A stretch of DNA of 64,000 nt from Sneathiella sedimenti (GTDB taxonomy: Bacteria; Pseudomonadota; Alphaproteobacteria; Sneathiellales; Sneathiellaceae), in assembly GCF_017313765.1 (NCBI RefSeq), contig NZ_JAFLNC010000002.1, forward strand, positions 434,001 to 498,000, read 5' to 3'. Positions 4,007 to 31,128 of this stretch are shown one piece after another. The stretch's first letter is position 1. Each line of letters opens with the position of its first letter. The notes beneath the pieces were generated by a model, which worked only from the letters and a program-made list of their open reading frames with translations, was not told the origin of the DNA and did no database searches. The translations under genes were made by a program, and so were the position numbers.

Positions 4007-5815
4007 GTGACTGATGTAAACGGAATCGCCACCGATGCGGATAAAAAGGAAAAGTCTAAACAGGTGGTGACTCGCCTTTGGCAGCTCTGGCGATTCGTCA
4101 AGCCCTATAAGCTGCAGGTTTTCGGTGCCCTGATCGCGCTTATTGTCGCGGCCGGCACCACCTTGTGGATCGGGCAGGCAATACGCGATCTTCTGGACAA
4201 GGGATTTACCGCCGGGGCGGGAAGCCTCGACCGTGTGTTTATCGAGCTGATGGGGGTGGTCGCCTTGCTCGCCGTCGCCACGTTCAGCCGTTATTTTCTG
4301 GTGTCCTGGATTGGCGAGCGGGTCATTTCCGATCTCCGTAAAGCGGTATTCAATCATGTCCTGACTCTGAACCCCGCATTTTTCGAAGTTACCCGGACGG
4401 GGGAAGTTCTGTCGCGCCTGACAACCGATACGACCCTGATCCAGACTGTCATCGGATCCTCGATTTCGGTGGCGCTCCGCAATTTCCTGCTTTTCATCGG
4501 GGGCCTTGCGTTCCTTATCTATACGAGCCCCGCCCTTTCGGGGATGGTGCTGCTGGTTGTGCCTCTCGTGCTGGTGCCGATCATTGTCTTTGGACGGATG
4601 GTACGCAAGCTCAGCCGGGCGAATCAGGACAGCATCGCCGCCGTCAGTTCCCGCGCCGATGAAACCTTGCGTGCCATACAAACATCCCAGGCCTATACCC
4701 ATGAGGATCATGACCGGGCGCAGTTCAGTGCGGATGTCGAGACCAGCTTTCGCATCGCCATCAGGCGCATCACCGCGCGCGCCTGGCTAACCGCCCTCGT
4801 CATCCTTCTAATTTTCGGCGCGATCGATTTTGTTCTCTGGAGCGGCGCGACCGCTGTTGTCGACGGCAGTATGTCCGCAGGCACATTGGGCGCCTTCGTC
4901 TTTTACGCGGTTATCGTCGCGGGTTCCATGGGTTCGCTCAGTGAAGTCTGGGGCGAGTTGCAGCGGGCAGCGGGTGCCTCGGAACGGTTGCTGGAACTGC
5001 TGGCGGAAGAGCCAACGGTCTCCATTCCGACAGCCCCCCTGCCAATTGGATCGTCAATAGAGAAAAATATCCATTTCGACAATGTCACCTTTCACTATCC
5101 TTCGCGGCCGGATCAGGCGGCGCTGAATGACTTCTCGCTCGAAATTCAAAAAGGCGAGACTGTCGCCCTTGTCGGGCCGAGCGGGGCGGGCAAGACGACA
5201 ATCTTCCAGCTTCTACTGCGCTTTTATGATCCGCAGTCGGGACGCGTTACCATCGATGGGATCAATATAGCTGAGGTGGATCCGGTCCGTCTTCGCGCGC
5301 TGATGGGTCTGGTGCCGCAGGATGCGGTGATCTTCGCCGATACCGCCATGGAAAATATCCGCTATGGCCGGCCGGAGGCGAGCGATGCCGAGGTGCGCGC
5401 CGCGGCCGAGGCCGCCGTCGCTACCGAGTTTATCGATGCCATGCCGGACGGGTTTCACACCGAGTTTGGTGAGCGGGGGATCAAACTGTCCGGTGGCCAG
5501 AAGCAGCGGATCGCTATCGCCCGCGCCATCCTGCGGGACCCAGAAATCCTATTGCTGGATGAGGCAACCTCCGCTCTTGACGCGGAAAGCGAACGGCAGG
5601 TGCAGATCGCCCTTGAGCATCTTATGCAAAACCGGACGACACTGGTCATCGCCCATCGGCTTGCGACCGTGCTAAATGCCGATCGGATTATCGTGCTGGA
5701 AAATGGGCGTATCGTTAATCAGGGCACCCATGTGGAACTGATGGCTGAAGGGGGACTTTACGCCAAGCTGGCCAAGCTCCAGTTCGACGTGGGCCGAAGC
5801 GCGTTATCCGCCTAG
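4007..5815 (+). CDS. ABC exporter, fused permease-ATPase (MsbA-related)
   Basis: A 602-residue half-transporter. The first ~320 residues hold six membrane helices of the type-I exporter fold, and the rest is the ATPase with Walker A GPSGAGKTT, signature LSGGQKQR, Walker B ILLLDEATSALD and the H-loop VIAHRLATV. The enzyme works as a homodimer in the inner membrane, exporting lipids, glycolipids or drugs. The sequence resembles the MsbA-related group common in alphaproteobacteria. The start is GTG 4007, with GCAGGAA upstream. The last 12 bases overlap the convergent glycosyltransferase gene. The neighbouring glycosyltransferases suggest, but do not prove, an envelope-lipid substrate. Confidence 0.9.
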   Translation: MTDVNGIATDADKKEKSKQVVTRLWQLWRFVKPYKLQVFGALIALIVAAGTTLWIGQAIRDLLDKGFTAGAGSLDRVFIELMGVVALLAVATFSRYFLVSWIGERVISDLRKAVFNHVLTLNPAFFEVTRTGEVLSRLTTDTTLIQTVIGSSISVALRNFLLFIGGLAFLIYTSPALSGMVLLVVPLVLVPIIVFGRMVRKLSRANQDSIAAVSSRADETLRAIQTSQAYTHEDHDRAQFSADVETSFRIAIRRITARAWLTALVILLIFGAIDFVLWSGATAVVDGSMSAGTLGAFVFYAVIVAGSMGSLSEVWGELQRAAGASERLLELLAEEPTVSIPTAPLPIGSSIEKNIHFDNVTFHYPSRPDQAALNDFSLEIQKGETVALVGPSGAGKTTIFQLLLRFYDPQSGRVTIDGINIAEVDPVRLRALMGLVPQDAVIFADTAMENIRYGRPEASDAEVRAAAEAAVATEFIDAMPDGFHTEFGERGIKLSGGQKQRIAIARAILRDPEILLLDEATSALDAESERQVQIALEHLMQNRTTLVIAHRLATVLNADRIIVLENGRIVNQGTHVELMAEGGLYAKLAKLQFDVGRSALSA

Positions 5816-6865
5816 AACGTCGTTGAGTACGCCTGCCAGCTGGCCATGAATGGTTTGCTGGCTGAAATGTTGCTCATAATAGGCCCGTGCGGCGGCGCCA
5901 GAGGACTCAAGCTCTGTCCGGGCCAGGGTGAGTTGCCGGACGCGATCGGCAAGCGCCTTGGGGTCTCCTGGCGGGATTTCGATAAGCCCTGTGTTCTTTG
6001 GTGCGGGATAGGCTGTCGATTCACGTGTTATCACTGTCCGGCCACAAGCTAGCGCCTGATAGACTTTGTTGGGGATCACCCGTGCCGCCTTGTCAGTTGT
6101 CCCAAAAACGCCAAGCAGGATTCCCGCCTCATGGATGCGTGCCGGCAATTTCTCATACGGCAGATAGTCTTCGAAGGTGATCGACGGATGACCGGCGGCT
6201 GCGGCCTCGCATACGGCCTTTCGCGGACCGTCCCCAAGTAAGGTCCAGCGGAGCGGGAGGTCGTCACACAGCTTCGCCGCCTCGACAATTATCTCCGGTG
6301 CCTGCAGACCGATAAAACTCCCATAGAAAAGGACTTCCAGCGGTTCCTCAGATGCTTTCTCAGCCAGTGGGGCGGGGGTAAACAGCTTTTCTTCCGCGCC
6401 GACCGCAATGACGTGGATTTTATCCGGCTCGAGTCCGAAAGTATCGGCAAAGAAGGCCGCATGGCCGGCGGTATCGGCAATGATCCGATCAGCTTTTGAG
6501 AAGATCCTACGTTCTTTTTCAAGAAGGTCTTTCGCTTTGCGGCTTTTCTCCGCAAACTTCCGCCGTTCGAACACCTGCTTGTCATAGGCAGATATCATCG
6601 GATCGAAGAGGAGCGGAACGCCGTGCCGACGGGCCCATTTCGCCGCGGCTGCCATATCCCGCTGACGAAAAGCGGGAAGCCAGAGGAGATCAGGTTTTTT
6701 AACGCCATTTATCGTCGCCTCTAATTTTCCAAGGGGACTGATATGGGGGCGAAAATCGTTAATCCGCCAGCCAAGGGCCCGAAATGCCTGCCGGAGGATT
6801 CTGTTGCGGGAATACTCCGGATCAAACCGGCCCCACCAGAGGACGGATTTTGCCGTTTCGCTCAT
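5804..6865 (-). CDS. Glycosyltransferase, GT-B fold (GT4-like)
   Basis: A 353-residue cytoplasmic glycosyltransferase. The C-terminal half has the GT4-type features: FYGSFIGLQAPEIIVEAAK, LLGDGP, the loop YEKLPARIHEAGILLGVFG and the acidic sugar-nucleotide site region ARVIPNKVYQALACGR. The N-terminal acceptor domain contains a Rossmann-like DLLWLPAFRQRD stretch. It overlaps the upstream GT9 gene by 4 bp (ATGA), indicating translational coupling, and its 3' end overlaps the ABC exporter gene by 12 bp. A role in lipopolysaccharide or other surface glycan assembly is inferred from the neighbours. Confidence 0.82.
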   Translation of the reverse strand: MSETAKSVLWWGRFDPEYSRNRILRQAFRALGWRINDFRPHISPLGKLEATINGVKKPDLLWLPAFRQRDMAAAAKWARRHGVPLLFDPMISAYDKQVFERRKFAEKSRKAKDLLEKERRIFSKADRIIADTAGHAAFFADTFGLEPDKIHVIAVGAEEKLFTPAPLAEKASEEPLEVLFYGSFIGLQAPEIIVEAAKLCDDLPLRWTLLGDGPRKAVCEAAAAGHPSITFEDYLPYEKLPARIHEAGILLGVFGTTDKAARVIPNKVYQALACGRTVITRESTAYPAPKNTGLIEIPPGDPKALADRVRQLTLARTELESSGAAARAYYEQHFSQQTIHGQLAGVLNDVLGG

Positions 6866-7797
6866 GTCCCGAGATCCAGCTCACCAATTACCTTCTCAAG
6901 CGAAAGGTCGGCGAGATCATCCTCGCGCAGAACCCGGACGTCCCGGCCGCGAGGGCGAGACATGTTGGGGTCGGACGCGCGAGAGAAGAGAACGACCGTC
7001 TTGCAGCCAACGGCGGAAATCAGGTGCAGGGGGCCGGTGTCATTTCCCACTGCCAGAACGGCGCCCGCGCCAAGAGAGGCAATATCACCAAAGTCCGTTT
7101 TTGAAGAAAGATCGAGGGCCGTGGGACAGGCGTCCTTGATTGTTGCAATTGCCTCGGCCTCCGCCTTGCCGCCGATCAGGGCGGGCGTAATACCCTGTTC
7201 ATGCAGATAGGTGGCGAGCTCGGCGAAGCGGATCGCAGGCCAGCGTTTCTCCGGCCGATGAGCGGAGCCGCCAGGGACTAATAAGGCATATTTCGCGGGC
7301 AGGCTGAACCTCGAGATATCGGTCATTGCCCAGGAAAAATCGACGGGCGGGATAGTGTCGATGCCGGCCACCTTCAACTGGTCAATATGCCGCTCGATCG
7401 TGTGTATCTTGGTGCGAAGCGGGCTGTCATGGGGGTGGGAACACCCTTTGGCGACACCGCACCATTCCGGCTTCCGCCGTTTTGGAAAGAAACTGAAGTA
7501 AGAATTCGTGCGGGTAGAGGTCTGAAGATCGTACACCCGGTCAAACTTCCCCCGGCGCAGTTTCCGGATTAGCGGTATGAGTTTGGACAACTGCCAGATT
7601 TTCGGACGCTCATCGATCCAGATTTCATCGAACAGGCCGGATTTCTCAAGAAAAGTGGCGAAGGGGCGGGTTGTCAGCAACACTATCCGCGCGTCGCCAT
7701 GATGGGCACGGATCGCCTGAAATGGCCCCTGCGCTAGGATTACGTCGCCAAGCGCGCCATGCTTGATGACAAGAATATTCCGACCCTTGCCCGCCAC
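6862..7797 (-). CDS. Glycosyltransferase family 9, heptosyltransferase-like
   Basis: A 311-residue protein with the heptosyltransferase layout: ILVIKHGALGDVILAQGPF at the N-terminus, ALLVPGGSAHRPEKRWP in the middle, and the conserved GNDTGPLHLISAVG near the C-terminus, which contacts the nucleotide sugar. Members add ADP-heptose or related sugars to the inner core of lipopolysaccharide on the cytoplasmic face of the membrane. It starts 3 bp after the stop of the MotB-like gene, so it is probably in one transcript with the motor-like set. The exact sugar transferred cannot be told from sequence. Confidence 0.85.
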   Translation of the reverse strand: MAGKGRNILVIKHGALGDVILAQGPFQAIRAHHGDARIVLLTTRPFATFLEKSGLFDEIWIDERPKIWQLSKLIPLIRKLRRGKFDRVYDLQTSTRTNSYFSFFPKRRKPEWCGVAKGCSHPHDSPLRTKIHTIERHIDQLKVAGIDTIPPVDFSWAMTDISRFSLPAKYALLVPGGSAHRPEKRWPAIRFAELATYLHEQGITPALIGGKAEAEAIATIKDACPTALDLSSKTDFGDIASLGAGAVLAVGNDTGPLHLISAVGCKTVVLFSRASDPNMSRPRGRDVRVLREDDLADLSLEKVIGELDLGT

Positions 7798-7800
7798 CGG

Positions 7801-9162
7801 CTAGCGTTCCGTCAGCTTGAGTTCGATCCGCCGGTTCCGAAGATAGCCGATCTCGTCATCGCGGGTATCGATTGGCTGGAACTCGCCAAAGCCGGTTGGG
7901 GCCAGCCGCTTTGGCGGGACACCCTGACTAATCAGGAATTTCGTTACGGAAAGGGCGCGGGCGACGGATAGTTCCCAGTTGGACGGGAAGCGCGCCGTGC
8001 TGATGGGCTGGCTGTCCGTATGGCCGTCAACCCGCAGGATCCAGTCAATTTCCTTCGGAATATCCTTGGCGATTTCCAGCAGCGTGGCCGCGAATTTCGC
8101 CATATCCTGTTTGCCTTCCGGTCCCAGTTCCGCCTGACCCGCATCAAAGAGGACTTCCGACTGGAAGACGAAGCGGTCGCCGACGATACTGATGCCCGGC
8201 CGGTTTTTCAGCACCTCCCGCAGTCTCCCGAAAAACTCGGACCGGTATTGCTGCAGTTCCTGCACCTTGGCCGCAAGCGCCTGATTAAGCCGTTTGCCGA
8301 GATCGGCGATTTGCGCGTTTTGCTCTACATCCTTCGCCTCACTTGCCTCAAGAGCCTGATTGAGCTTGGCGAGTTCATTTCGAAGGGTATTGATCTGGGC
8401 ATTGAGGGCCGCGACCTGCGATCGCGCGGCGGCGGAAAGGGCCTCTTCCTCGGTCAGCTTGTCCTGTGTCTGGAGATAGAGGGTCTGAAGCTCGGCAAGG
8501 CGGATTTCGCGTTCCTCGATATCCTTCTGGGCCAGAACAGTGCGTTCCTGTTCATCGGCGAGGTTGGTTTCCAGCTCCTTGCTGCGATCACGCAGATTAC
8601 CTATTACCGTATCTTTTTCCTCGATCGTGGCGGCGAGTTTGCCGACCTCCTCCTCAAGATTCTTGCGTGTTTCTTCCAGCGCGGCAATATCCCGCTTGAG
8701 GCTTTCAAGTTCGGCGAGATTGGCTTTCAGGCTTGCCTCGCTTACGTCCAGTTTTTCCTCCATCGCCGCGGTTTTGTCCTTTTCCTCGCGGAGCAGGACT
8801 GTCAGGCGATCCCGGTCTTCCTCGGCAGAAAGGGCGCGGCTGGTCAGGGTATCAAGCTGGATAATGACGTTGTCCCGTTCCTCCGCGAGTTTTGTCATAT
8901 CAATGTTGAGCTGGGTGATCTGGTTTTCAAGGTTTGCACTGGTTCGTCGCTCGATCGCCAGGAGGTCGGCCAGTTCATTGACCTGCTGGTTGAGCTTTTC
9001 AAGCGCCGCGTCGCGTCCCGACAGGGCCTGGGAGAGAAAAAATTGCGCCAGCACAAAGACCACCAGCAGGAAGATGATCACCAGCAGCAGGGTGGTCAAT
9101 GCATCAACAAAGCCTGGCCAAATCTCGTATGGGGCGCGTTGTCCGCGGCGTCTACGAGCCAT
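7801..9162 (-). CDS. MotB/OmpA-like motor stator protein with long coiled coil
   Basis: A 453-residue inner-membrane protein. Residues 1-13 are basic, followed by one transmembrane helix (about 17-45) starting PGFVDALTTLLLV, in which Asp20 sits where MotB and ZorB carry the ion-binding aspartate. Residues 50-305 are almost continuous heptad-rich coiled coil. The C-terminal ~130 residues are an OmpA-like peptidoglycan-binding domain with VDGHTDSQP and the NxxLSxxRAxxVxxxL signature at 395-410. It partners the MotA-like protein encoded 32 bp upstream. There are no flagellar genes nearby. It would anchor an ion-driven inner-membrane complex to peptidoglycan; its task is unknown. Confidence 0.85.
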   Translation of the reverse strand: MARRRRGQRAPYEIWPGFVDALTTLLLVIIFLLVVFVLAQFFLSQALSGRDAALEKLNQQVNELADLLAIERRTSANLENQITQLNIDMTKLAEERDNVIIQLDTLTSRALSAEEDRDRLTVLLREEKDKTAAMEEKLDVSEASLKANLAELESLKRDIAALEETRKNLEEEVGKLAATIEEKDTVIGNLRDRSKELETNLADEQERTVLAQKDIEEREIRLAELQTLYLQTQDKLTEEEALSAAARSQVAALNAQINTLRNELAKLNQALEASEAKDVEQNAQIADLGKRLNQALAAKVQELQQYRSEFFGRLREVLKNRPGISIVGDRFVFQSEVLFDAGQAELGPEGKQDMAKFAATLLEIAKDIPKEIDWILRVDGHTDSQPISTARFPSNWELSVARALSVTKFLISQGVPPKRLAPTGFGEFQPIDTRDDEIGYLRNRRIELKLTER

Positions 9163-9194
9163 AGCTCACTCCGTCTTTTACAGCGGGCATTGTC

Positions 9195-10394
9195 TCAACC
9201 ACGGCGGCTTTCTTCTGCGATAGCGGCGATTGTCCGGGTCAGCAGTTTGATGTCGCTGCGGATTTCCTGAACGACCTGTTCACGGCCATCCGCGCTTTCC
9301 TCCAACATTCTGACCATATGCACATCCAGATTGCGAAGATGATTGCGGCTTGACTGGTCAAGTCCGGCACTTTCTGCCGATTTGGCAAGCCGTTCAAAAA
9401 GGGGCTTCAGTTCCGTCTGCCCTTCGGCAAGCTTGACCAGCAGGTCCTGTTCCGTCCGCATCTGGTCGGTGAGCGCGGCCAGACGTTCGCTCAGGTTGAT
9501 GAGGGAGTTTTCCGCCGACCCGCGCTTGTCCTCATTGCGGGCGAGGGTGCGTTGAAGATTGTTCAGGCTTTCCGCCGTTTGTTCGAGAAGGGCCTGAACA
9601 TAAGCGGGAACACTCTGGTCGCTGTCGGCGATGACGGCAGAGCCGGAGCTGCTGAAACGGGTGATGGATGTCAGCCATTCCTCGAGGTCGCCGTAAAAAC
9701 GGTTCTGCGCCTGGCCGGCCTGCATATCGAGGAAACCCAGAACCAATGATCCTGACAGCCCGAAGAGGGAGGACGAAAAGGCAATCGACATGCCCGACAG
9801 TGGTTTTTCAAGTCCAAGCTTCAACTCATCGAAAATAGCGACGAAATCACCGCCGCCACCGACATTGAGCGTGGAAATGGCATCCCCCACAGACGCCACC
9901 GTCTCCAGCAACCCCCAGAAAGTGCCGAGCAGGCCCAAGAAAACCAGAACGTTGATCAGATAGCGTGAAATATCGCGCCCTTCATCAAGACGCGCGCTGA
10001 CACTGTCCAGCAACGTATTCATCGTCACGGCGCTTAACCGGATTGGCCCGTTGCTGTCACTGAAAATGGTATAGAGGGGTGCCAGCAGGCGCGGCGGCCG
10101 CACCGTGGGTTGCGACGATTCAAGACGGCGCAGACTGTGGGTCCAGTTAATCTCCCCGGTCAGCATCAAGACTTGGCGGAAAATGAACAGGATACCAAAC
10201 AGCAGGACCAGAATGATAAGGCCGTTCAGGAGAGGATTGGCGAAAAAAGCGGTCTGGAGTTGTGGATAGAGAAAGGCGGAGATCGCAACTGCAACGCCGA
10301 TAAAAATGGTCATTCGGATCAGATAGCGCCGGGGTTTCTTTATGTTCGGCGTACCAGCCAGGCTGTGGGTTTCGACATTGGAAATTGTTGACAT
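9195..10394 (-). CDS. MotA/TolQ/ExbB-family ion channel subunit
   Basis: A 399-residue membrane protein. Predicted helices lie at about 25-45, 54-78, 145-170 and 200-225; the last two, VFLGLLGTFWGLLETV and GMSIAFSSSLFGLSGSL, match the pore helices of MotA/TolQ/ExbB proteins. Residues 230-399 form a long cytoplasmic tail rich in charged heptads (LSERLAALTDQMRTEQ), unusual for MotA and reminiscent of ZorA. It would form the oligomeric ring around the MotB-like subunit and convert ion flow into rotation or force. The 2-bp gap to the upstream OmpA-like gene and 32-bp gap to the MotB-like gene indicate one operon. Confidence 0.85.
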   Translation of the reverse strand: MSTISNVETHSLAGTPNIKKPRRYLIRMTIFIGVAVAISAFLYPQLQTAFFANPLLNGLIILVLLFGILFIFRQVLMLTGEINWTHSLRRLESSQPTVRPPRLLAPLYTIFSDSNGPIRLSAVTMNTLLDSVSARLDEGRDISRYLINVLVFLGLLGTFWGLLETVASVGDAISTLNVGGGGDFVAIFDELKLGLEKPLSGMSIAFSSSLFGLSGSLVLGFLDMQAGQAQNRFYGDLEEWLTSITRFSSSGSAVIADSDQSVPAYVQALLEQTAESLNNLQRTLARNEDKRGSAENSLINLSERLAALTDQMRTEQDLLVKLAEGQTELKPLFERLAKSAESAGLDQSSRNHLRNLDVHMVRMLEESADGREQVVQEIRSDIKLLTRTIAAIAEESRRG

Positions 10395-10396
10395 GG

Positions 10397-11401
10397 TTAC
10401 CTTGTAATCATTAGGAGATCAACGCGGTCTGACGGTCCGTCGCCTTTCGGCTCACCAAGTGCCCGTACTTCAATCTGCCTGTTATTGACACCAAGTTCCA
10501 TCAGTTTGGAGCGAATTGCGAGCGCCCGGCCAAGCGAAAGACGGCGTGCGGCGCTGACGCTGTTTCCGCTACCATAGGCGAGGAGCTGGACATTGCGCCG
10601 GTCGCCATCCTTGAACTGGTCGGCGATGACCTGCAGGGTGGTTTGCGCCTCTGTCGGCAGGTCTGCAACGCCTTCGGCGAACAGGATTCGCGTGATATTG
10701 TCATTAACGCCTGATGATGTAGTTGACGCAGCTGTACCCGCGTCGGGCGCGATGGCAGCGAGCTTGACCTCCTCCTCCGCCAGTGTCTTGGTCTGCTTTT
10801 CCGCCGTGTCGGCCTGCGTTGCCGCCATAGTCTCCGTCGATGTCTGGGGAGCTTCTACTGGTTCCTCTTTTACTTGCACCGGCGCTGTATCGGCTGATTC
10901 TACAAGCTTATCCGTCGCTAATGTCGCGACATCGCTTTTTGTCTCTTCCGCAACGTCAGGGGTCGGGATCGGCGCTGTGTCCATCTTGACGACAGGGGTG
11001 GCGACATCCTCAAACTTCGCCTTTTCTGCCGGTTCTGGCAGCTTCGCGGGATTGAGCGGAGGGACAGGGACGGGAGGAGCGGCTGCGACAGTTGTTTCCG
11101 GAAGTGAAAGAGCCGGCTTTATGAGCGGTGTGACGATTTCTTGAGCCGGTGCAGAAGAGGTATTTTTCTTCATCGACGGCGGCGTCAGGATAATCACCGA
11201 CTCACCATCAATAATCCGGGTCGGGACATTCAGCAGCGGGTTTGAGTATTTTAGTGCTTGCAGGTTTACTTCTACCGCCGGCCGCGCAGAAGCGCCGGTA
11301 TCCGCATGCGCTGACACTGAAATGAAACCGGACAGGGGGATGGCAAGTGCCAGGGAAGAAAGCAGGGATATGGAGTATCTCGTCGCCGGCAATCTGGTCA
11401 T
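10397..11401 (-). CDS. Secreted OmpA-like domain protein with Ala/Thr/Pro-rich linker
   Basis: The frame is open back to 11473, but ATG 11401 is preferred: it follows GGGAG closely and gives a clean signal peptide (basic start, hydrophobic core, cleavage near SAHA/DTG). The 334-residue protein then has a low-complexity linker rich in Ala, Thr, Pro, Glu and Val (about residues 70-230). It ends with an OmpA-like domain containing ILFAEGVADLPTEAQ and the AARRLSLGRALAIRSKLMELGV helix. It lacks an obvious DGHTD motif, so peptidoglycan binding may be weaker or different. As the first gene of the motor-like set it is probably a periplasmic accessory to that complex. Confidence 0.7.
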   Translation of the reverse strand: MTRLPATRYSISLLSSLALAIPLSGFISVSAHADTGASARPAVEVNLQALKYSNPLLNVPTRIIDGESVIILTPPSMKKNTSSAPAQEIVTPLIKPALSLPETTVAAAPPVPVPPLNPAKLPEPAEKAKFEDVATPVVKMDTAPIPTPDVAEETKSDVATLATDKLVESADTAPVQVKEEPVEAPQTSTETMAATQADTAEKQTKTLAEEEVKLAAIAPDAGTAASTTSSGVNDNITRILFAEGVADLPTEAQTTLQVIADQFKDGDRRNVQLLAYGSGNSVSAARRLSLGRALAIRSKLMELGVNNRQIEVRALGEPKGDGPSDRVDLLMITR

Positions 11402-11697: not shown

Positions 11698-11910
11698 ATG
11701 AAGCTTGATACGATAGCACTGATACTGGCTGTTTTTGGAGGTCTGGCGTACCTGTTGTTCTTAATATTTGCAGGTGCAACTTCCCCCTTTCCTATCGGGA
11801 CTGTCCTTTTTATCGTCCTGGCGATTTTCATATACCTGCTGGTTCGCGTGCTTTTACAGCGCTACGGTAACGCCGAAGACGATTTCTATGAGCAGAATAT
11901 CGACCAGTGA
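11698..11910 (+). CDS. Small two-helix membrane protein
   Basis: A 70-residue protein with two hydrophobic helices, about residues 5-26 and 32-55, and an acidic C-terminal tail (NAEDDFYEQN). ATG 11698 is chosen over the in-frame ATG 11677 because the helix begins immediately after it (MKLDTIALILAVFG) and GAAGGG lies upstream. The stop overlaps the start of the YbjQ gene (GTGA), so the two are translationally coupled. I do not recognise the family; the tight link suggests a membrane anchor or partner for YbjQ. A TATACAAT sequence near 11654-11661 may be part of its promoter. Confidence 0.6.
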   Translation: MKLDTIALILAVFGGLAYLLFLIFAGATSPFPIGTVLFIVLAIFIYLLVRVLLQRYGNAEDDFYEQNIDQ

Positions 11911-12263
11911 GAGTAAAAATGATTGTCACTACTACAGATGAGATCAGCGGCCAGGAAATTGCCGAAGTGATAGGGCTGGTGCGGGGCAACGTGATCCGTG
12001 CGAAACATATCGGGACGGACATCATCGCCGCGTTGCGTAATCTTGTCGGCGGCGAAGTTCGGGAATACACCAAGATGATGGCGGAAGCCCGTGAACAGGC
12101 AGCAGATCGGATGATTGCCGAAGCGAGGCTGAAAGGCGCGGATGCCATTGTCGGCATGCGCTTTACAACGTCCATGGTCCTGGCTGGGTCGGCGGAAATT
12201 CTCGCATATGGCACGGCGGTGCGGCTGATTCCGGGAAAACAACCTGCTACCGCCGTCGACTAA
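11907..12263 (+). CDS. YbjQ/UPF0145 (DUF74) family protein
   Basis: A 118-residue protein of the YbjQ family, a small pentameric fold of unknown function sometimes called a heavy-metal-binding domain. Signs are the N-terminal TTTDEISGQEI, the core LVRGNVIRAKHIGTDI, NLVGGEVREYTKMMAEARE and the C-terminal GADAIVGMRF. GTG 11907 overlaps the preceding stop; ATG 11919, four codons in, gives the more usual MIVTTTDE start and is an equally good candidate. The metal-binding claim for the family is weakly supported, so only the family is asserted. Confidence 0.85.
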   Translation: MRVKMIVTTTDEISGQEIAEVIGLVRGNVIRAKHIGTDIIAALRNLVGGEVREYTKMMAEAREQAADRMIAEARLKGADAIVGMRFTTSMVLAGSAEILAYGTAVRLIPGKQPATAVD

Positions 12264-12269
12264 AGCCGG

Positions 12270-13286
12270 TTAGTAGTCTTCTTCACTCATTTCGATGACG
12301 CATTTGCCGTCAACCTTCCGGTCGATCACGGCGTCCAGCGCGTCAACGAACTGCGAGAGCGGGAATCGGGCGCCGATCTCGGGGTTTATTTTCCCGTCCC
12401 TGTAGAGACCAAGCACGCCCGCAGCCATTTCGTCCAGCGCGTCGATATATTGCGCCCGGCTGCCGCCCGGTGACCAGCCGAAGAAATGCCCGAGGTTGAA
12501 ACCCAGCGCGGAGGCATTTTTTAAAAGCAGGGTATTGGCGGCAATCTTGGGGATCTCGCCGCAGGCATAACCAATTGTCAGCAGCCGCCCTTCCCACGCC
12601 AGCGAGCGGATAGACTGGATTGTCACGTCACCCCCGATGCTGTCATAGACAAGATCAACGCCGCGACCATTCGTGATATCCATGACGACATCGCGGAAAT
12701 TCGCCTGCCGATGGTCAATCACATGATCGGCCCCGTGACGGCGGGCCGTCTCGCAATGCTTTTCCCCGCCGGCGACAGCAATAACGGTCGCACCCAGGGC
12801 CTTGCCGATTTCGACAGCGGCCATTCCGACGGCGCCAGCCGCTCCGTGAACCAGCAGGGTCTCGCCGCTTTGCAGGTTGGCGCGGCGGGTCAGGGCGCCA
12901 TAGGAGGTGTTGTAGGAGGTGATCAAGGCGGATCCAACCGCGAAATCCATATCCTCAGGGATTTTATGGCAGGCAACATCCTCGATCTTGCAGAAACCGG
13001 CGGCGCCTCCATGATCGACGCTGCACATGACGTGGTCGCCCACGGCGACGCGGGTTACATTCTCGCCCACGGCATGAACGATGCCGGCTGATTCTGTTGC
13101 CGGAATATAGGGGAGGGGGGCCTTGCGCTGATATTTGCCGGCGATGTTGAGGGATGCGGCGAAGCTTACGCCCGCCGCTTTGTTGCGGACAACCACTTCC
13201 CCTGGTCCGGGTTCGGGTATGGGAAGGGTTTCGAGCTTGGCAACGTCTTGATAGTTACCGAATTTATGGACGACGATAGCACGCAT
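12270..13286 (-). CDS. Zinc-less NADPH:quinone oxidoreductase-like MDR enzyme
   Basis: A 338-residue medium-chain dehydrogenase/reductase. The N-terminal GroES-like domain contains PGPGEVVVRNKAAGVSF, and the Rossmann domain has the nucleotide-binding GAAGAVG motif (about residues 149-155) and DLVYDSIGG. The cysteine cluster of structural-zinc alcohol dehydrogenases is absent, which places it in the quinone oxidoreductase group (one-electron or two-electron quinone reduction with NADPH), though many members reduce enones. It is convergent with the YbjQ gene with only 6 bp between stops. Substrate unknown. Confidence 0.85.
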   Translation of the reverse strand: MRAIVVHKFGNYQDVAKLETLPIPEPGPGEVVVRNKAAGVSFAASLNIAGKYQRKAPLPYIPATESAGIVHAVGENVTRVAVGDHVMCSVDHGGAAGFCKIEDVACHKIPEDMDFAVGSALITSYNTSYGALTRRANLQSGETLLVHGAAGAVGMAAVEIGKALGATVIAVAGGEKHCETARRHGADHVIDHRQANFRDVVMDITNGRGVDLVYDSIGGDVTIQSIRSLAWEGRLLTIGYACGEIPKIAANTLLLKNASALGFNLGHFFGWSPGGSRAQYIDALDEMAAGVLGLYRDGKINPEIGARFPLSQFVDALDAVIDRKVDGKCVIEMSEEDY

Positions 13287-13376: not shown

Positions 13377-14180
13377 TTACTTTCCGAGACGGATTTTCCG
13401 AAACATTTCCAGCATGGAGCTGTTGATTCCGCTGTTGGTGGCGAGGATATCGCCTTTTTCCAGCATTTTCTCGCCGCCATCGAGCTGCGAGACGAGTGCT
13501 CCGGCTTCGCGGGCAATGATGATACCGGCGGCAATATCCCATTCAGCGAGATTTCGTTCCCAGTAACCGTCATATCGACCGGCGGCGACATAGGCTAGAT
13601 CAAGGGCCGCGGAGCCAAAACGGCGCACACCCGCGGAAATTGACATCACATGCTCAAGTTCCTTCAGGAACTTTCCGTGATCTGCCTTGCCTGTAAAGGG
13701 AATGCCGGTCGCCAGAATACAGTCGGTCATCTTGGTACGGCTGGACACCCGGAGGCGACGGTCATTCATATAGGCGCCGCCGCCTTTTTCCGCCCAGAAC
13801 AGCTCGTCCTTTACCGGATCGAGGATGATGCCGGCAATAATCTCCTTGCCCGCCTTGACGCCGATTGAAATGGCAAAATGCGGCAGGCCGTGAAGGAAAT
13901 TTGTTGTCCCGTCGAGGGGATCAACAACCCAGTTATGGATTCCGTCCTTCGACTCGATCACGCCGCCTTCTTCGAGAATAAAGCCGAATTCCGGACGCAG
14001 CCGGCCAAGTTCCTCCCGCAGGGTCGCCTCGCAGGTCAGGTCCGCCTGGGAGACAAAATCCGCCGGGCCCTTGCGCGATACCTGCAAATGCTCAACCTCG
14101 TTGAAGTCACGGAGGAGCTTGCGGGCAGCTTTTCGTGCAGAAAGCTCCATTGCGTTAATGATTGCGGATTTTCTCGCCAT
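13377..14180 (-). CDS. suhB: Inositol monophosphatase family protein
   Basis: A 267-residue Mg2+-dependent phosphatase. The metal-binding motifs are in place: EEGG (about 71-74), WVVDPLDGTTNFLHG (about 86-100) and EWDIAAGIIIAREAGA near the C-terminus. It hydrolyses inositol-1-phosphate or related sugar phosphates; the E. coli member also acts as a ribosomal RNA transcription factor, which cannot be inferred here. It is followed upstream by efp, thiE and fba in the same orientation, a conserved alphaproteobacterial grouping. Confidence 0.92.
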   Translation of the reverse strand: MARKSAIINAMELSARKAARKLLRDFNEVEHLQVSRKGPADFVSQADLTCEATLREELGRLRPEFGFILEEGGVIESKDGIHNWVVDPLDGTTNFLHGLPHFAISIGVKAGKEIIAGIILDPVKDELFWAEKGGGAYMNDRRLRVSSRTKMTDCILATGIPFTGKADHGKFLKELEHVMSISAGVRRFGSAALDLAYVAAGRYDGYWERNLAEWDIAAGIIIAREAGALVSQLDGGEKMLEKGDILATNSGINSSMLEMFRKIRLGK

Positions 14181-14227: not shown

Positions 14228-14791
14228 TTAGTCCGCCCGCTTGAGATACTCGGATGTTTCCGTGTTGACAACGATTTTCTCGCCCGTGCCGCAAAATGGG
14301 GGCACCATCACCCGCATCCCGTTCTCCAGGATTGCCGGTTTGTAGGAAGAGGCCGCTGTCTGTCCTTTCACGGTAGGCTCGGTTTCGGTGATCTCGAGGA
14401 TGACCTGCTCCGGCAGGATCACGGTGAGCGGGCTTTCCTCGTGAAACTCGATCTCGACATCCATGCCGTCCTGCAGGAAAGCGGCGCGCTCGCCGACCAT
14501 ATCCTTGGAAATCGACACCTGCTCATAGGTGCTTGTATCCATGAAGGTCAGCAACTCGCCATCCTCAAACAGGAACTGGTGCGGCTTTTGTTCCAGGCGA
14601 ACCCGTTCTACGGACTCGGAGGCGCGAAAGCGCTCGTTCAACTTGGTGCCATCGCGGAGGTTCTTGAGTTCCACCTGCAGATAGGCACCGCCTTTGCCGG
14701 GCTGAGTATGCTGAATTTTTACAGCGACCCACAGGCCCCCTTTATGCTCGATCACATTGCCCGGGCGGACAGCATTTCCGTTAATTTTCAT
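14228..14791 (-). CDS. efp: Translation elongation factor P
   Basis: A 187-residue, three-beta-barrel EF-P. The N-terminal KOW-like domain carries QPGKGGAY with the conserved lysine that receives beta-lysine in organisms with EpmA/EpmB, and the C-terminal OB domains end with the family motif around [17 protein letters not shown] enters stalled ribosomes and rescues synthesis at polyproline runs. That is relevant here because TolA in this window carries a very proline-rich linker. The ATG at 14791 lies 39 bp from the thiE stop. Confidence 0.95.
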
Positions 14792-26936: not shown

Positions 26937-27656
26937 ATGGAAAATGATGCTATTGTCGTCACCCAGATGGGCGGCGGTGCTCACGATTTATCAATGGTCG
27001 GCCTGTTTGTTCAGGCAGATATTGTTGTTCAGATAGTGATGATCGTTCTGGTACTGGCCTCCTTCTGGAGTTGGGCGATCATTATTGACAAGATCCTGCG
27101 GTTTCGCCGGATCACGGCCGATGCGGACGAATTCGAGAATGAATTCTGGTCCGGCGGCAATCTGGAGGATCTGCAGCGTCGCGTCGGGTCGAGCCCGGAC
27201 AATCCGCTGGCCATGCTGTTCGCTGCCGCCATGAAGGAATGGTCCCGCTCGACCGAGAAGGGGATTGGCAAGCATTCGCATACGGGTCTGCAGGCACGTA
27301 TCCATCAGGTCATGCGGGTAACCATTGACCGTGAAGTGGAGCGGCTTGAAAAGTATCTCGGATTTCTCGCGACAGTCGGCTCGACAGCAACATTCCTTGG
27401 CCTTTTCGGCACGGTATGGGGGATCATGAACAGCTTTCAGTCCATCGCCGCCACCAAGGACACCAGCCTTGCGGTCGTCGCCCCAGGTATCGCAGAGGCG
27501 TTGTTTGCGACCGCGCTCGGCCTTGTCGCTGCCATCCCGGCGGTTGTCGCCTATAACAAATTCTCTAATGACCTGCAGCGGATCATTACCCGTCTGGAAG
27601 GTTTCGCCGGCGAGTTTTCCGCCATCCTGTCCCGCCAGCTTGATTTGAGCGACTGA
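26937..27656 (+). CDS. tolQ: TolQ, ion-channel subunit of Tol-Pal
   Basis: A 239-residue inner-membrane protein with three transmembrane helices: about residues 20-45, then FLATVGSTATFLGLFGTVWGIM and VVAPGIAEALFATALGLVAAIPAVVAYN. The motif GLFGTVWGIM and LFATALGLVAAIPA are diagnostic of TolQ/ExbB. With TolR it uses the proton gradient to energise TolA and pull the outer membrane in during division. It starts directly on the ybgC stop. Confidence 0.95.
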   Translation: MENDAIVVTQMGGGAHDLSMVGLFVQADIVVQIVMIVLVLASFWSWAIIIDKILRFRRITADADEFENEFWSGGNLEDLQRRVGSSPDNPLAMLFAAAMKEWSRSTEKGIGKHSHTGLQARIHQVMRVTIDREVERLEKYLGFLATVGSTATFLGLFGTVWGIMNSFQSIAATKDTSLAVVAPGIAEALFATALGLVAAIPAVVAYNKFSNDLQRIITRLEGFAGEFSAILSRQLDLSD

Positions 27657-27658
27657 TC

Positions 27659-28129
27659 ATGGACGCCAACCATTATAAAGCCTTTACCGGCAAAGGCAGA
27701 CGCCGCCGCCATACCCAGATGTCGGAGATTAACGTCACACCGTTCGTCGACGTTATGCTGGTGCTGCTAATCGTCTTCATGGTGACCGCACCATTGCTGA
27801 CCGTTGGCGTGCCGCTGGAACTGCCCAACAGCAAGGCGGCGACCGTACAGGGCAATGACGAACCGCTGGTGATCAGCGTCGACGGGGAAGGGCGACTCTA
27901 TCTCGAGGATGTCGAGATTGAACTTGAAAACCTGGTACCCAAGCTCCGCGCTGTGACCGGCGCGAAGCAGGATCAGCGTATTTTCGTGCGCGGCGACACC
28001 AATGTGAATTATGGGCGCGTCCTTTCGGTGATGGGGGAAATTCATAACGCGGGCTTCAACCGTGTCGCGATGGTCTCCGCCGGTCCCGGCAAGGCGACAA
28101 CCGGCGCGAACAAAGACAGTAACCAGTAA
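27659..28129 (+). CDS. tolR: TolR, proton-coupling subunit of Tol-Pal
   Basis: A 156-residue protein with one transmembrane helix. SEINVTPFVDVMLVLLIVFMV carries the proton-binding Asp31, and the periplasmic domain with VNYGRVLSVMGEIHNAGFNRVAMVS is typical. The C-terminal tail (KATTGANKDSNQ) is polar. It lies 2 bp after tolQ and 15 bp before tolA. Confidence 0.94.
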   Translation: MDANHYKAFTGKGRRRRHTQMSEINVTPFVDVMLVLLIVFMVTAPLLTVGVPLELPNSKAATVQGNDEPLVISVDGEGRLYLEDVEIELENLVPKLRAVTGAKQDQRIFVRGDTNVNYGRVLSVMGEIHNAGFNRVAMVSAGPGKATTGANKDSNQ

Positions 28130-28144
28130 GGGGTCCTCCGACCG

Positions 28145-29089
28145 ATGAGAGTGCCTGCCCTAGCTTCGGCCGTACTGCATTTGCTGATCCTCGTGATCAT
28201 GTACACCGGCTTGCCGTTGTTCACGGACCCGAAGCTGTTTGAGCCGCCGGTTGTCATCAATGTGGAAATTGTCGATGTCGCGGAGATCACCAATTTGCCG
28301 AAACCCGCACCGGAGCCGGAAAAAGTCGAGAAGCCGGAACCTGAACCCAAGCCGGAACCGAAGCCCGAGCCCGCGCCCAAGCCCGAGCCAAAACCGGAAC
28401 CCGAGCCCGAGCCCGAGCCGGTGAAGAAGCCGGACCCGGAACCCGCGCCTGAACCCAAACCGGAGCCTGAACCCAAGCCCGAACCTGAACCTGAACCAAA
28501 ACCGGAACCCAAGCCGGAGCCAAAGGTAGAGCCGAAGCCGGTTCCCAAGCCACCGGTCTTGCCGAAACCGAAGTCCACGCCCAAACCAAAACCGGAACCC
28601 AAGCCCGAGCCGAAAAAGCCCGAGCCCAAAAAGCCGGCCTTTGACATGAACCAGATGAAGGCGTTGCTTGATAAAAAGAAGAAGGAGCAGGCCGCGAAAT
28701 CGCAGGAAACAGCCGACATAAAAAAGCCCAATTCTGCTGAAAAGGTGCCGAACTCGTCAAGCAAGGCAATGGACAGCTCCCTCCCACTGACTCTGAGCGA
28801 AGAGGACGCCCTAAGGCAGCAGGTCCAGAAATGCTGGAACGTGCCGACAGGGGCGGTAGACGCGGAAGAAATGGTTGTTTCTATTGAGATGCAGTTTAAT
28901 CAGGACGGGACATTGAACGGCTATCCGAAAATTGTAAACGAAGGTAGTTTCAAGAATGACTATGAAAGAGCGGCAGCGGAAAGTGCGCGGCGCGCTGTTC
29001 TTCAGTGTCAGCCCTATAAGCTGCCGGTGGCAAAATATGAACGCTGGCGCGAGGTCACGATGAACTTCAACCCGAAGGACATGTTCTAG
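28145..29089 (+). CDS. tolA: TolA with proline-rich, TonB-like linker
   Basis: A 314-residue inner-membrane protein: one N-terminal transmembrane helix (about 4-25), then a Pro-Glu/Pro-Lys repeat linker (about 52-165), a short helix around 166-190 with many Lys, and the globular TolA C-terminal domain (about 215-314; [12 protein letters not shown] and [14 protein letters not shown]). Cys230 and Cys288 could form a disulfide. The long helical domain II of E. coli TolA is replaced by EPKP-type repeats, as in TonB. It spans the periplasm and contacts Pal and TolB. tolB follows immediately. Confidence 0.93.
28298..28639 (+). repeat. Low-complexity EPKP-coding repeat tract inside tolA
   Basis: About 340 bases coding for TolA residues 52-165 consist of imperfect 6- and 12-base units encoding Pro-Glu and Pro-Lys pairs (codons CCG/CCC, GAG/GAA, AAG/AAA). 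The repeats drive a spurious Gly/Ser-rich open frame on the opposite strand (28042-28764). The tract is prone to slippage in replication and to assembly collapse. Confidence 0.85.
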
Positions 29090-29104
29090 GTGATAGGAAG
29101 AATG

Positions 29105-30451
29105 ATGGTTGGTAGAGTACAGAAAATCTTTGCATTCATGACGGGCTTGATGCTGGTCATGTCGGTCATGAGCGCTGCTCGTGCAGAACTGGTTATTGAT
29201 ATCACGCAAGGCAATATCGAGCCGATGCCGATTGCAGTAACGGATTTCTATGCTGATAACGAGGCAACGGCGAAAATCGGCAAGCAGATGGCCGATGTCA
29301 TTCGCGCCGACCTCGAACGCTCCGGTCTGTTCACGCCCATTGATCCTCGCGCCTACCTACAACAACCGAAGGATCTGCAGGCGGTTCCGGTTTTCGCCAA
29401 CTGGCGCAAGATTGCTGCCCAGGCACTTTCAACGGGACTTGTTCAGGCTCTTGGTGACGGCCAGATCAATGTGCAATTCCGCCTTTGGGATGTCTTCGCG
29501 GAACAATATTTGACGGGTATCCAGTATACAACTCCGCCGTCAAACTGGCGTCTGACGGCGCATCTGATTGCCGATGAAATTTACAAACGCCTGACCGGGG
29601 AGGATGGATATTTCTCCACGCGCGTCGTTTATGTCTCGGAAAGCGGTCCGGCAGACCGGCGGGTCAAGCGCCTCGCGATCATGGATCAGGATGGGGAGAA
29701 CCACCAGTTCCTGACCAGCGGGAACGAGCTGGTGTTGACCCCCCGTTATTCGCCGACGCAGCAGGTGCTCACCTATCTGTCCTACTTCAACAGCAAGCCG
29801 CGGGTGTATCTCTACAACCTTGATACGGGGCAGCAGGAAATTCTCGGAGAGTTTCCGGGCATGACCTTCGCACCGCGCTTCTCGCCTTCGGGGAACCAGG
29901 TGGTGATGAGCATGGCACAGGATGGCAACTCTGAAATATATTTGATGGATTTGCGGACCCGCGAAATGAAGCGTCTGACCAATCATCCGGGGATCGATAC
30001 CGCGCCGTCCTTCTCGCCTGACGGCACGAAAATCACCTTTGAATCGGATCGCGGGGGACGCCAGCAGATCTATGTCATGGGCGCGGACGGGTCAGATGTG
30101 AAGCGGATCAGCTTCGGTAGTGGCAATTATGGCACACCGGTCTGGTCTCCGCGCGGCGACCTGATCGCCTTCACCAAGCTTACCGGCGGGCAGTTTTCCA
30201 TCGGCGTTATGCGCACTGATGGCTCGCAGGAACGGATTTTGACCGAAGGCTTTCATAATGAAGGGCCTACTTGGGCGCCTAACGGACGTGTTCTGATGTT
30301 TTTCCGCCAGATTCCGGGAAAAAATGATGGCACCGGTGATAAAGTTCGCTTGTGGTCAGTAGACCTTACAGGATATAACGAACGGGAGGTTATTACGCCT
30401 GGTGACGGGTCCGATCCGGCGTGGTCGCCACCGTATAACTTGAATAGGTGA
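29105..30451 (+). CDS. tolB: TolB, periplasmic Tol-Pal protein
   Basis: A 448-residue secreted beta-propeller protein. The N-terminus has a signal peptide cleaved near [10 protein letters not shown], then an N-terminal domain and repeated WD40-like PD40 blades ([39 protein letters not shown]). TolB binds Pal and is displaced by energised TolA. GTG 29090, ATG 29102 and ATG 29105 are all in frame; 29105 is preferred because AGGAAG ends four bases before it. The first start would begin directly after the tolA stop. Confidence 0.93.
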
Positions 30452-30588
30452 CATCAAACCACTATAGTTTGCGAGATTACAATTTTAGGGGGACCATCTT
30501 TACACGTTTCTCATAGATACATTTCGTATCCATGCTTGACGCGAGATACCCAAAGTTCAGAGATTTCCAGAGGATGGGAGTTAAGTAA

Positions 30589-31128
30589 ATGCGGCTCAAT
30601 CTAGGCCTTAAAACCTTAAGTATTTTCACAGCGTTGCTGCTGGTTGCAGCTTGTGAAACGGCACCTACGGAAACCGGTGACAGCTCAGGTGGGGGCGCGA
30701 CTACCCAGACGAGCGGAACCTCCGGTTCCTCAACCACCGTTGTTTCGGGAACAACGACGACTACGGTTAAACCCGGCAGCCAGGAAGACCTGGTTCTTAA
30801 TGTCGGCGACCGCGTCTTCTTCGGGTTCGATAAGTACGACCTGTCAAACGAAGCGCAGGCCACGTTGCAGCGGCAGGCTGCCTGGTTGAAGGCGAACCCA
30901 ACGGTTACGCTTGTAATCGAAGGCAACACCGACGAACGCGGTACACGTGAATACAACCTTGCCCTCGGCGAACGTCGGGCGACAGCGGTAAAGAATTACC
31001 TGGTAACTCTGGGTATTTCGGCTGACCGTCTGTCCACGATTTCCTATGGTAAGGAACGCCCGGTTGCTCTCGGCCATAACGAGGCTGCCTGGGCTCAGAA
31101 CAGACGTTCGGTTTCGGTTGTAAATTAA
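30589..31128 (+). CDS. pal: Pal, peptidoglycan-associated lipoprotein
   Basis: A 179-residue lipoprotein with lipobox LVAAC (Cys22), a Ser/Thr/Gly linker and an OmpA-like peptidoglycan-binding domain (VFFGFDKYDL, EGNTDERGTREYNLALGERRA, ISYGKERP). It anchors the outer membrane to the wall and is the target of TolA and TolB. A 137-bp gap separates it from tolB, with TTGACG near 30536 as a possible promoter element, so pal may also be transcribed on its own. A strong terminator follows. Confidence 0.96.
   Translation: MRLNLGLKTLSIFTALLLVAACETAPTETGDSSGGGATTQTSGTSGSSTTVVSGTTTTTVKPGSQEDLVLNVGDRVFFGFDKYDLSNEAQATLQRQAAWLKANPTVTLVIEGNTDERGTREYNLALGERRATAVKNYLVTLGISADRLSTISYGKERPVALGHNEAAWAQNRRSVSVVN

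Follow-up and report, generated by a model that had tools for sequence, protein, structure and literature searches.

The stretch of DNA analysed here, referred to as the window, comprises 64,000 nucleotides of Sneathiella sedimenti (NZ_JAFLNC010000002.1, 434,001-498,000), and all positions given are those of the window. Three adjacent genes on its minus strand encode a trio of proteins with the appearance of an ion-driven motor:

10397-11401, minus strand: OmpA-like third component, signal peptide present, 334 amino acids counted from the ATG at 11401 (Pfam OmpA, 40.1 bits)
9195-10394, minus strand: MotA/ZorA-like A subunit, 399 amino acids (PADLOC ZorA1, 39.9 bits; Pfam MotA_ExbB, 19.4 bits)
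7801-9162, minus strand: MotB-like B subunit, 453 amino acids (NCBIfam NF006543)

The OmpA-like and MotA-like genes are separated by 2 base pairs (bp) and the MotA-like and MotB-like genes by 32 bp, and motB is followed at 3 bp by a glycosyltransferase family 9 (GT9) gene. This layout had been noted in a preliminary description of the DNA, which also pointed to a cytoplasmic tail of about 170 residues on the MotA-like protein, to Asp20 and a peptidoglycan-binding OmpA domain in the MotB-like protein, to the secreted nature of the OmpA-like protein and to a genuine tol operon at 26.9 kilobases. All of these features are present, as described below. The closest named relatives of the MotA-like protein are those of S. 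litorea (94% identical) and S. chungangensis (92%). Given the recurrence of the same order across the class, the arrangement of the trio is far beyond chance.

Four hydrophobic helices are present in the MotA-like protein, and behind them lies the C-terminal tail (approximately residues 231-399, bases 9198-9704), which was modelled as long helices. The Pfam MotA_ExbB score of the protein is below the cut-off of 22.9 bits on its own. In the alignments of A subunits the GLLGTFxGL core with Thr158 (codon 9921-9923) is invariant. The AlphaFold model has a mean predicted local distance difference test (pLDDT) value of 78, with much of the core above 90 and the tail at about 60-75. The best fold match of the model was ZorA (8VVN), followed by TolQ and ExbB, of which the first alone passes an expectation value (E) of 0.001; no match was obtained when the profile of the A subunit was compared with the sequences of solved structures. 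By its modelled fold and channel core, and by the Asp in the helix of its B partner, the A subunit can be placed in the superfamily of 5:2 ion motors (MotAB/TolQR/ExbBD/ZorAB).

The MotB-like protein scored 459.5 bits against NF006543 'peptidoglycan -binding protein' (PRK09039; cut-off 305), a label without any role attached. Asp20 is found within WPGFVD (codon 9103-9105), a long coiled-coil stalk is predicted, and residues 338-438 (bases 7849-8151) form the OmpA domain. OmpA domains bind diaminopimelate through the Asp of GHTD and the Arg of LSxxRA, as in the structure of Acinetobacter baumannii OmpA. In the B subunit GHTD is intact (Asp383) and the arginine is Arg402; together with Asp20 these residues are invariant in the alignment.

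Alignment of 30 copies of the OmpA-like third component revealed a signal peptide, a short conserved segment, a proline/alanine-rich linker and an OmpA-like end. The short segment is PAVEVNLQAL in the window copy, with a family pattern close to VxVDLxVL. A loose pattern matched it in 42 of 75 full-length copies, and it is therefore a tendency and not a rule. The OmpA fold covers approximately residues 235-334 (bases 10400-10699), in which the arginine (Arg292) is conserved and the Asp of GHTD is missing. In the structural model this C-terminal domain has pLDDT values mostly of 88-98, while the remainder is largely disordered, and the domain matches OmpA/Pal structures (E of about 1e-6). Of 92 copies, 81 have the arginine pattern and none has the GHTD Asp; the only match to the GHTD expression (L125) arose by chance in the C-terminal tail and was discounted. 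The protein scored 12.9 bits against the model for recognised Pal (cut-off 125) and 13.3 bits against that for MotY. Judged from these residues, diaminopimelate binding seems to have been lost.

The distribution of the motor was surveyed in 290 alphaproteobacterial genomes with a completeness of at least 95%. The MotA-like profile found the family in 198 of them, four of these matches being weak (E 1e-22 to 1e-31; G085, G090, G172, G197) and possibly from other families, and NF006543 was above its cut-off in 183. Gene order was compared over 120 loci: 80 named loci picked by likeness to the A subunit, which lean to Rhodospirillales and relatives, and 40 from further genomes picked for breadth, some of them for small genomes. 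Of the 120 loci, 111 have motB near motA on the same strand and 92 have the OmpA-like gene there; suhB shares the strand in 87 and efp in 79. The median gap is 11 bp from motA to motB and 47 bp from the OmpA-like gene to motA. The order OmpA-like, motA, motB is common to loci of many families, and an extended order, tkt-gap-pgk-fba-thiE-efp-suhB followed by the trio, is often kept, so that suhB, efp, thiE and central-carbon genes are the conserved neighbours. Because order and neighbours are conserved over the loci, the trio is taken as an inherited chromosomal module. A rearranged locus was seen in one genome (G485, L224), where the MotB-like gene is followed by an unusually long MotA-like gene (564 amino acids) and then efp.

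The motor is also present in genomes of 0.7-1.1 megabases (Mb). Ten genomes were searched for all MotA_ExbB proteins. In five genomes of 0.7-0.9 Mb (G096, G120, G194, G227, G299) the search gave two proteins and no more, a TolQ match and the motor. Three of about 0.9 Mb (G160, G071, G286; L241-L243) have the motor and a sole TolQ-type protein that is unusually short, with open frames of 172-185 amino acids, and lies below the TolQ threshold; in G286 the general model saw the short protein alone and the motor was found by the specific profile. In several of the smallest genomes motA was seen but neither motB nor an OmpA-like gene was recognised, and a very diverged partner could have been missed there.

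The other features of the window that bear on the trio are as follows:

14228-14791, minus strand: efp (elongation factor P), conserved upstream neighbour and syntenic anchor
13377-14180, minus strand: suhB-like inositol monophosphatase, conserved upstream neighbour and syntenic anchor, not a part of the motor
11907-13286: ybjQ-like (plus strand) and quinone-oxidoreductase-like (minus strand) genes between suhB and the OmpA-like gene, not parts of the motor
6862-7797, minus strand: GT9 glycosyltransferase gene (Pfam/NCBIfam)
5804-6865, minus strand: glycosyltransferase family 4 (GT4) gene with a 4-bp overlap with GT9 (Pfam/NCBIfam)
26937-31128, plus strand: ordinary, separate tolQ-tolR-(tolA)-tolB-pal operon, with tolQ at 26937-27656

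In the tol operon tolQ, tolR, tolB and pal are each above their NCBIfam cut-offs and tolA was assigned by position. The quinone-oxidoreductase-like gene is found at the matching place in S. litorea and S. chungangensis (L056, L057) and not in S. glossodoripedis (L058). Since GT9 follows motB so closely and overlaps GT4, the pair is probably co-transcribed with the motor here. The preliminary description had proposed a motor coupled to surface glycan genes. That coupling, whether to synthesis or to export of surface glycans, did not survive the neighbourhood survey and was largely refuted by it. Relatives of the GT9/GT4 pair are beside the motor in 2 of the 80 named loci, both from Sneathiella, and in S. 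glossodoripedis the trio is intact with neither gene downstream of motB. The pair is a local insertion in part of Sneathiella, outside the motor; the link to glycans therefore fails, and we consider it extremely unlikely.

A search of the source genome with the MotA_ExbB model gave five places. In addition to the trio, the genome has the TolQ of the window, followed by TolR, TolB and Pal; a PomA-like flagellar protein on the same contig, a few kilobases from fliF; an ExbB-like protein with an ExbD-like neighbour, assigned by sequence; and MotA1 with its own MotB. With four further motors of this kind in the genome, the trio is an additional motor and not a stand-in for a missing one. An additional flagellar stator would be in keeping with a MotA/MotB-like pair in which the Asp is intact and, as in MotAB/PomAB stators, the B subunit combines an Asp-bearing helix with a peptidoglycan-binding OmpA domain. 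The distribution of the motor in the class rejects such a role. Motor and FliF occur together in 120 genomes, the motor alone in 78, FliF alone in 45 and neither in 47 (Fisher p = 0.07). The motor is thus independent of flagella: 78 of the 198 genomes that carry it are without FliF, 45 with FliF are without it, and in S. sedimenti itself two further genes encode flagellar stator A subunits, one of them near fliF. MotY is an OmpA-domain helper protein of the flagellar stator, and the third protein of the trio differs from it in its low score to the MotY model, as the trio differs from MotAB/PomAB with MotY in its occurrence in genomes without flagella. There is hardly any probability left for a flagellar stator.

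The trio resembles Tol-Pal in being an envelope ion motor with an OmpA-domain protein outside the motor, and both systems are kept in very small genomes. It differs from Tol-Pal in having no relative of TolA or TolB, and Tol is separately present in the genome; its OmpA-domain partner, unlike Pal, is not a recognised Pal and is without the diaminopimelate-binding Asp. No TolQ match was obtained for the A subunit, and TolR was not among the matches listed for the B subunit. A substitute for Tol was rejected, as TolQ is found in 276 of the 290 genomes and the tol operon is in the window itself. The trio might instead energise an outer-membrane transporter or a secretion system in the manner of ExbBD, SiiAB or GldLM. 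The fold class is the same, and the third component, being secreted, might extend as far as the outer membrane. Among the conserved neighbours, however, there was no sign of a receptor, a secretin or a secreted substrate, and none of the other motor families of the genome is replaced by the trio. Such a task appears improbable. The preliminary description of an uncharacterised motor that is neither flagellar nor Tol nor Exb is supported. It had also staked its reading on the three genes keeping together and on there being no best match to a described system with a known role; the genes do keep together over the 120 loci, and no such match was found.

Among described systems the nearest relative is Zorya. 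Like ZorAB of types I-III, the trio has a MotA-like channel with a cytoplasmic tail and a MotB with Asp and an OmpA domain, and ZorA provides the nearest solved fold. The best PADLOC matches were ZorA (39.9 bits) and ZorB3 (94.2 bits). The A subunit scored 33-40 bits against the ZorA models, the best being ZorA1, whereas true ZorA3 proteins score 546-1113 bits. Its tail of about 170 amino acids compares with about 280-460 in Zorya. The effectors ZorC/D/E and DUF3348/DUF2894 were not seen among the neighbours of the trio, and the two genes after motB had no PADLOC match. The likeness to ZorA/ZorB without ZorC/ZorD effectors, to which the preliminary description had drawn attention, is thereby upheld.

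A survey of 249 genomes of the phylum extended the comparison beyond the class. Matches outside the class fall into two groups. Five are strong (E 1e-99 to 1e-142), and in the four that were inspected (L208-L211; G493, G419, G413, G365) a matching motB was found and no efp, suhB or recognised OmpA-like gene. These strong relatives are probable horizontal transfers; some of them have a short A subunit of about 244-268 amino acids. In most of the weak matches the A subunit is long and the B subunit behind it is short; the two weak matches that were examined are of the DUF3348-DUF802-OmpA-DUF2894 operon type, assigned by PADLOC to Zorya III. In these operons, found in other classes of the phylum, the order is DUF3348-DUF802(ZorA3)-OmpA/MotB(ZorB3)-DUF2894 (L216:1578-5684, L218:2871-5665), and A-B pairs are likewise seen in L212-L221. 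DUF3348 and DUF2894 were found with true ZorA3 only. The Zorya III-type operon is the nearest other motor lineage. In a tree of A subunits the motor family fits as one clade (log-likelihood 16 better when constrained, approximately unbiased test p 0.85) and adjoins ZorA3, about 3.8 changes per site apart. Several wrong ZorA1 fragments had been left out of this tree. It was quick and has long branches, and therefore only the gross placement was used.

An anti-phage system of the Zorya type, or a Zorya core with its effector encoded elsewhere, would account for the top PADLOC matches, the fold and the tree neighbour, distant as the latter is. Membership was rejected on the scores and the missing effectors. 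The conserved chromosomal order and the presence in genomes of 0.7-0.9 Mb are unlike a defence island; the trio lies in core synteny and not in defence loci, and it has an extra secreted OmpA-like partner. Moreover, one genome (G356, L233) carries the motor together with a separate ZorA1 (G356:C5:26394-27341). A role as Zorya is very unlikely. The trio is not a Zorya, and it may work like the ZorAB core.

Taking these results together, we propose that the trio is a housekeeping ion-driven envelope motor of the 5:2 type in Alphaproteobacteria with a periplasmic third subunit of its own, likely for envelope upkeep; as a whole this proposal has, in our judgement, an even chance of being right. 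The 5:2 stoichiometry, the rotation, the type of ion, the partner role of the third subunit and the envelope task are what we infer, with solved 5:2 motors as the template for the working of the machine (PMC12505986, PMC11890865). A ring of five MotA-like subunits would form around two MotB helices, and ions passing Asp20 and the circle of Thr158 residues would turn this ring relative to MotB, while the OmpA domains of MotB would grip the peptidoglycan. The third protein would act in coupling or anchoring: with its OmpA-like domain it would dock on the motor or on another envelope protein, and its proline/alanine-rich arm would reach a partner, by analogy with MotY for the Vibrio stator and Pal for Tol. 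Working alongside Tol-Pal, the motor would most likely serve envelope upkeep, in the tension or connection of peptidoglycan and outer membrane; this is suggested by its inheritance with the chromosome, its persistence where flagella are missing and its retention beside Tol in very small genomes.

The main rival to an upkeep motor is a mechanosensor, in which the peptidoglycan-bound motor would sense strain of the wall or turgor and signal it, via the tail of the A subunit, to the cytoplasm. A helical tail does lie behind the channel in most members, and Zorya, which uses such a tail, depends on it as well as on ion flow and peptidoglycan binding (PMC11890865). Against this, the tail is much shorter in some lineages (L179, L180, L181; alignment rows L046, L048, L050), and no conserved cytoplasmic partner gene adjoins the trio, whose neighbours are metabolic and translation genes. 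A sensor seems rather unlikely, though likelier than the other alternatives. The short tails also count against the upkeep motor as proposed here, since they imply that the tail is not needed everywhere, and so do three further results. The third component is missing or unrecognised in about a quarter of the loci. The motor family is missing from about a third of the class and is therefore not universally essential. The lengths of stalk, linker and tail are uncorrelated and hence give no support for a shared span; matched lengths as a sign of such a span were accordingly rejected.

The trio is built of parts from known families and is a machine of a known kind; the detail of the third component is new. 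The B subunit clearly belongs to NF006543/PRK09039, a class-wide family; that entry leaves out the A subunit, an unnamed MotA/TolQ/ExbB gene, as well as the OmpA-like partner and the conserved order. No description of the trio system or of its role was found in the open-licence literature, subscription papers being outside the scope, so that 'undescribed' is unproven; in two recent surveys of such motors the word alphaproteobacteria is absent from the text. It is tentatively suggested, with somewhat less than even confidence, that the trio may be an unrecognised core envelope machine of Alphaproteobacteria, of the rank of Tol-Pal. Its peptidoglycan-anchored 5:2 motor would act on a secreted subunit of its own, a long flexible arm whose terminal OmpA domain would have lost the ability to bind peptidoglycan, and with Tol it would be the last ion motor in some of the smallest genomes.

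The 5:2 motors with known tasks are few and serve flagella, Tol, Ton, gliding/secretion and phage defence. Members of the present family occur in cultured, tractable genera such as Azospirillum and Magnetospirillum. A motor carried by roughly two thirds of the class genomes sampled, with a conserved partner and even in genomes below 1 Mb, probably performs a basic, overlooked task in the envelope.

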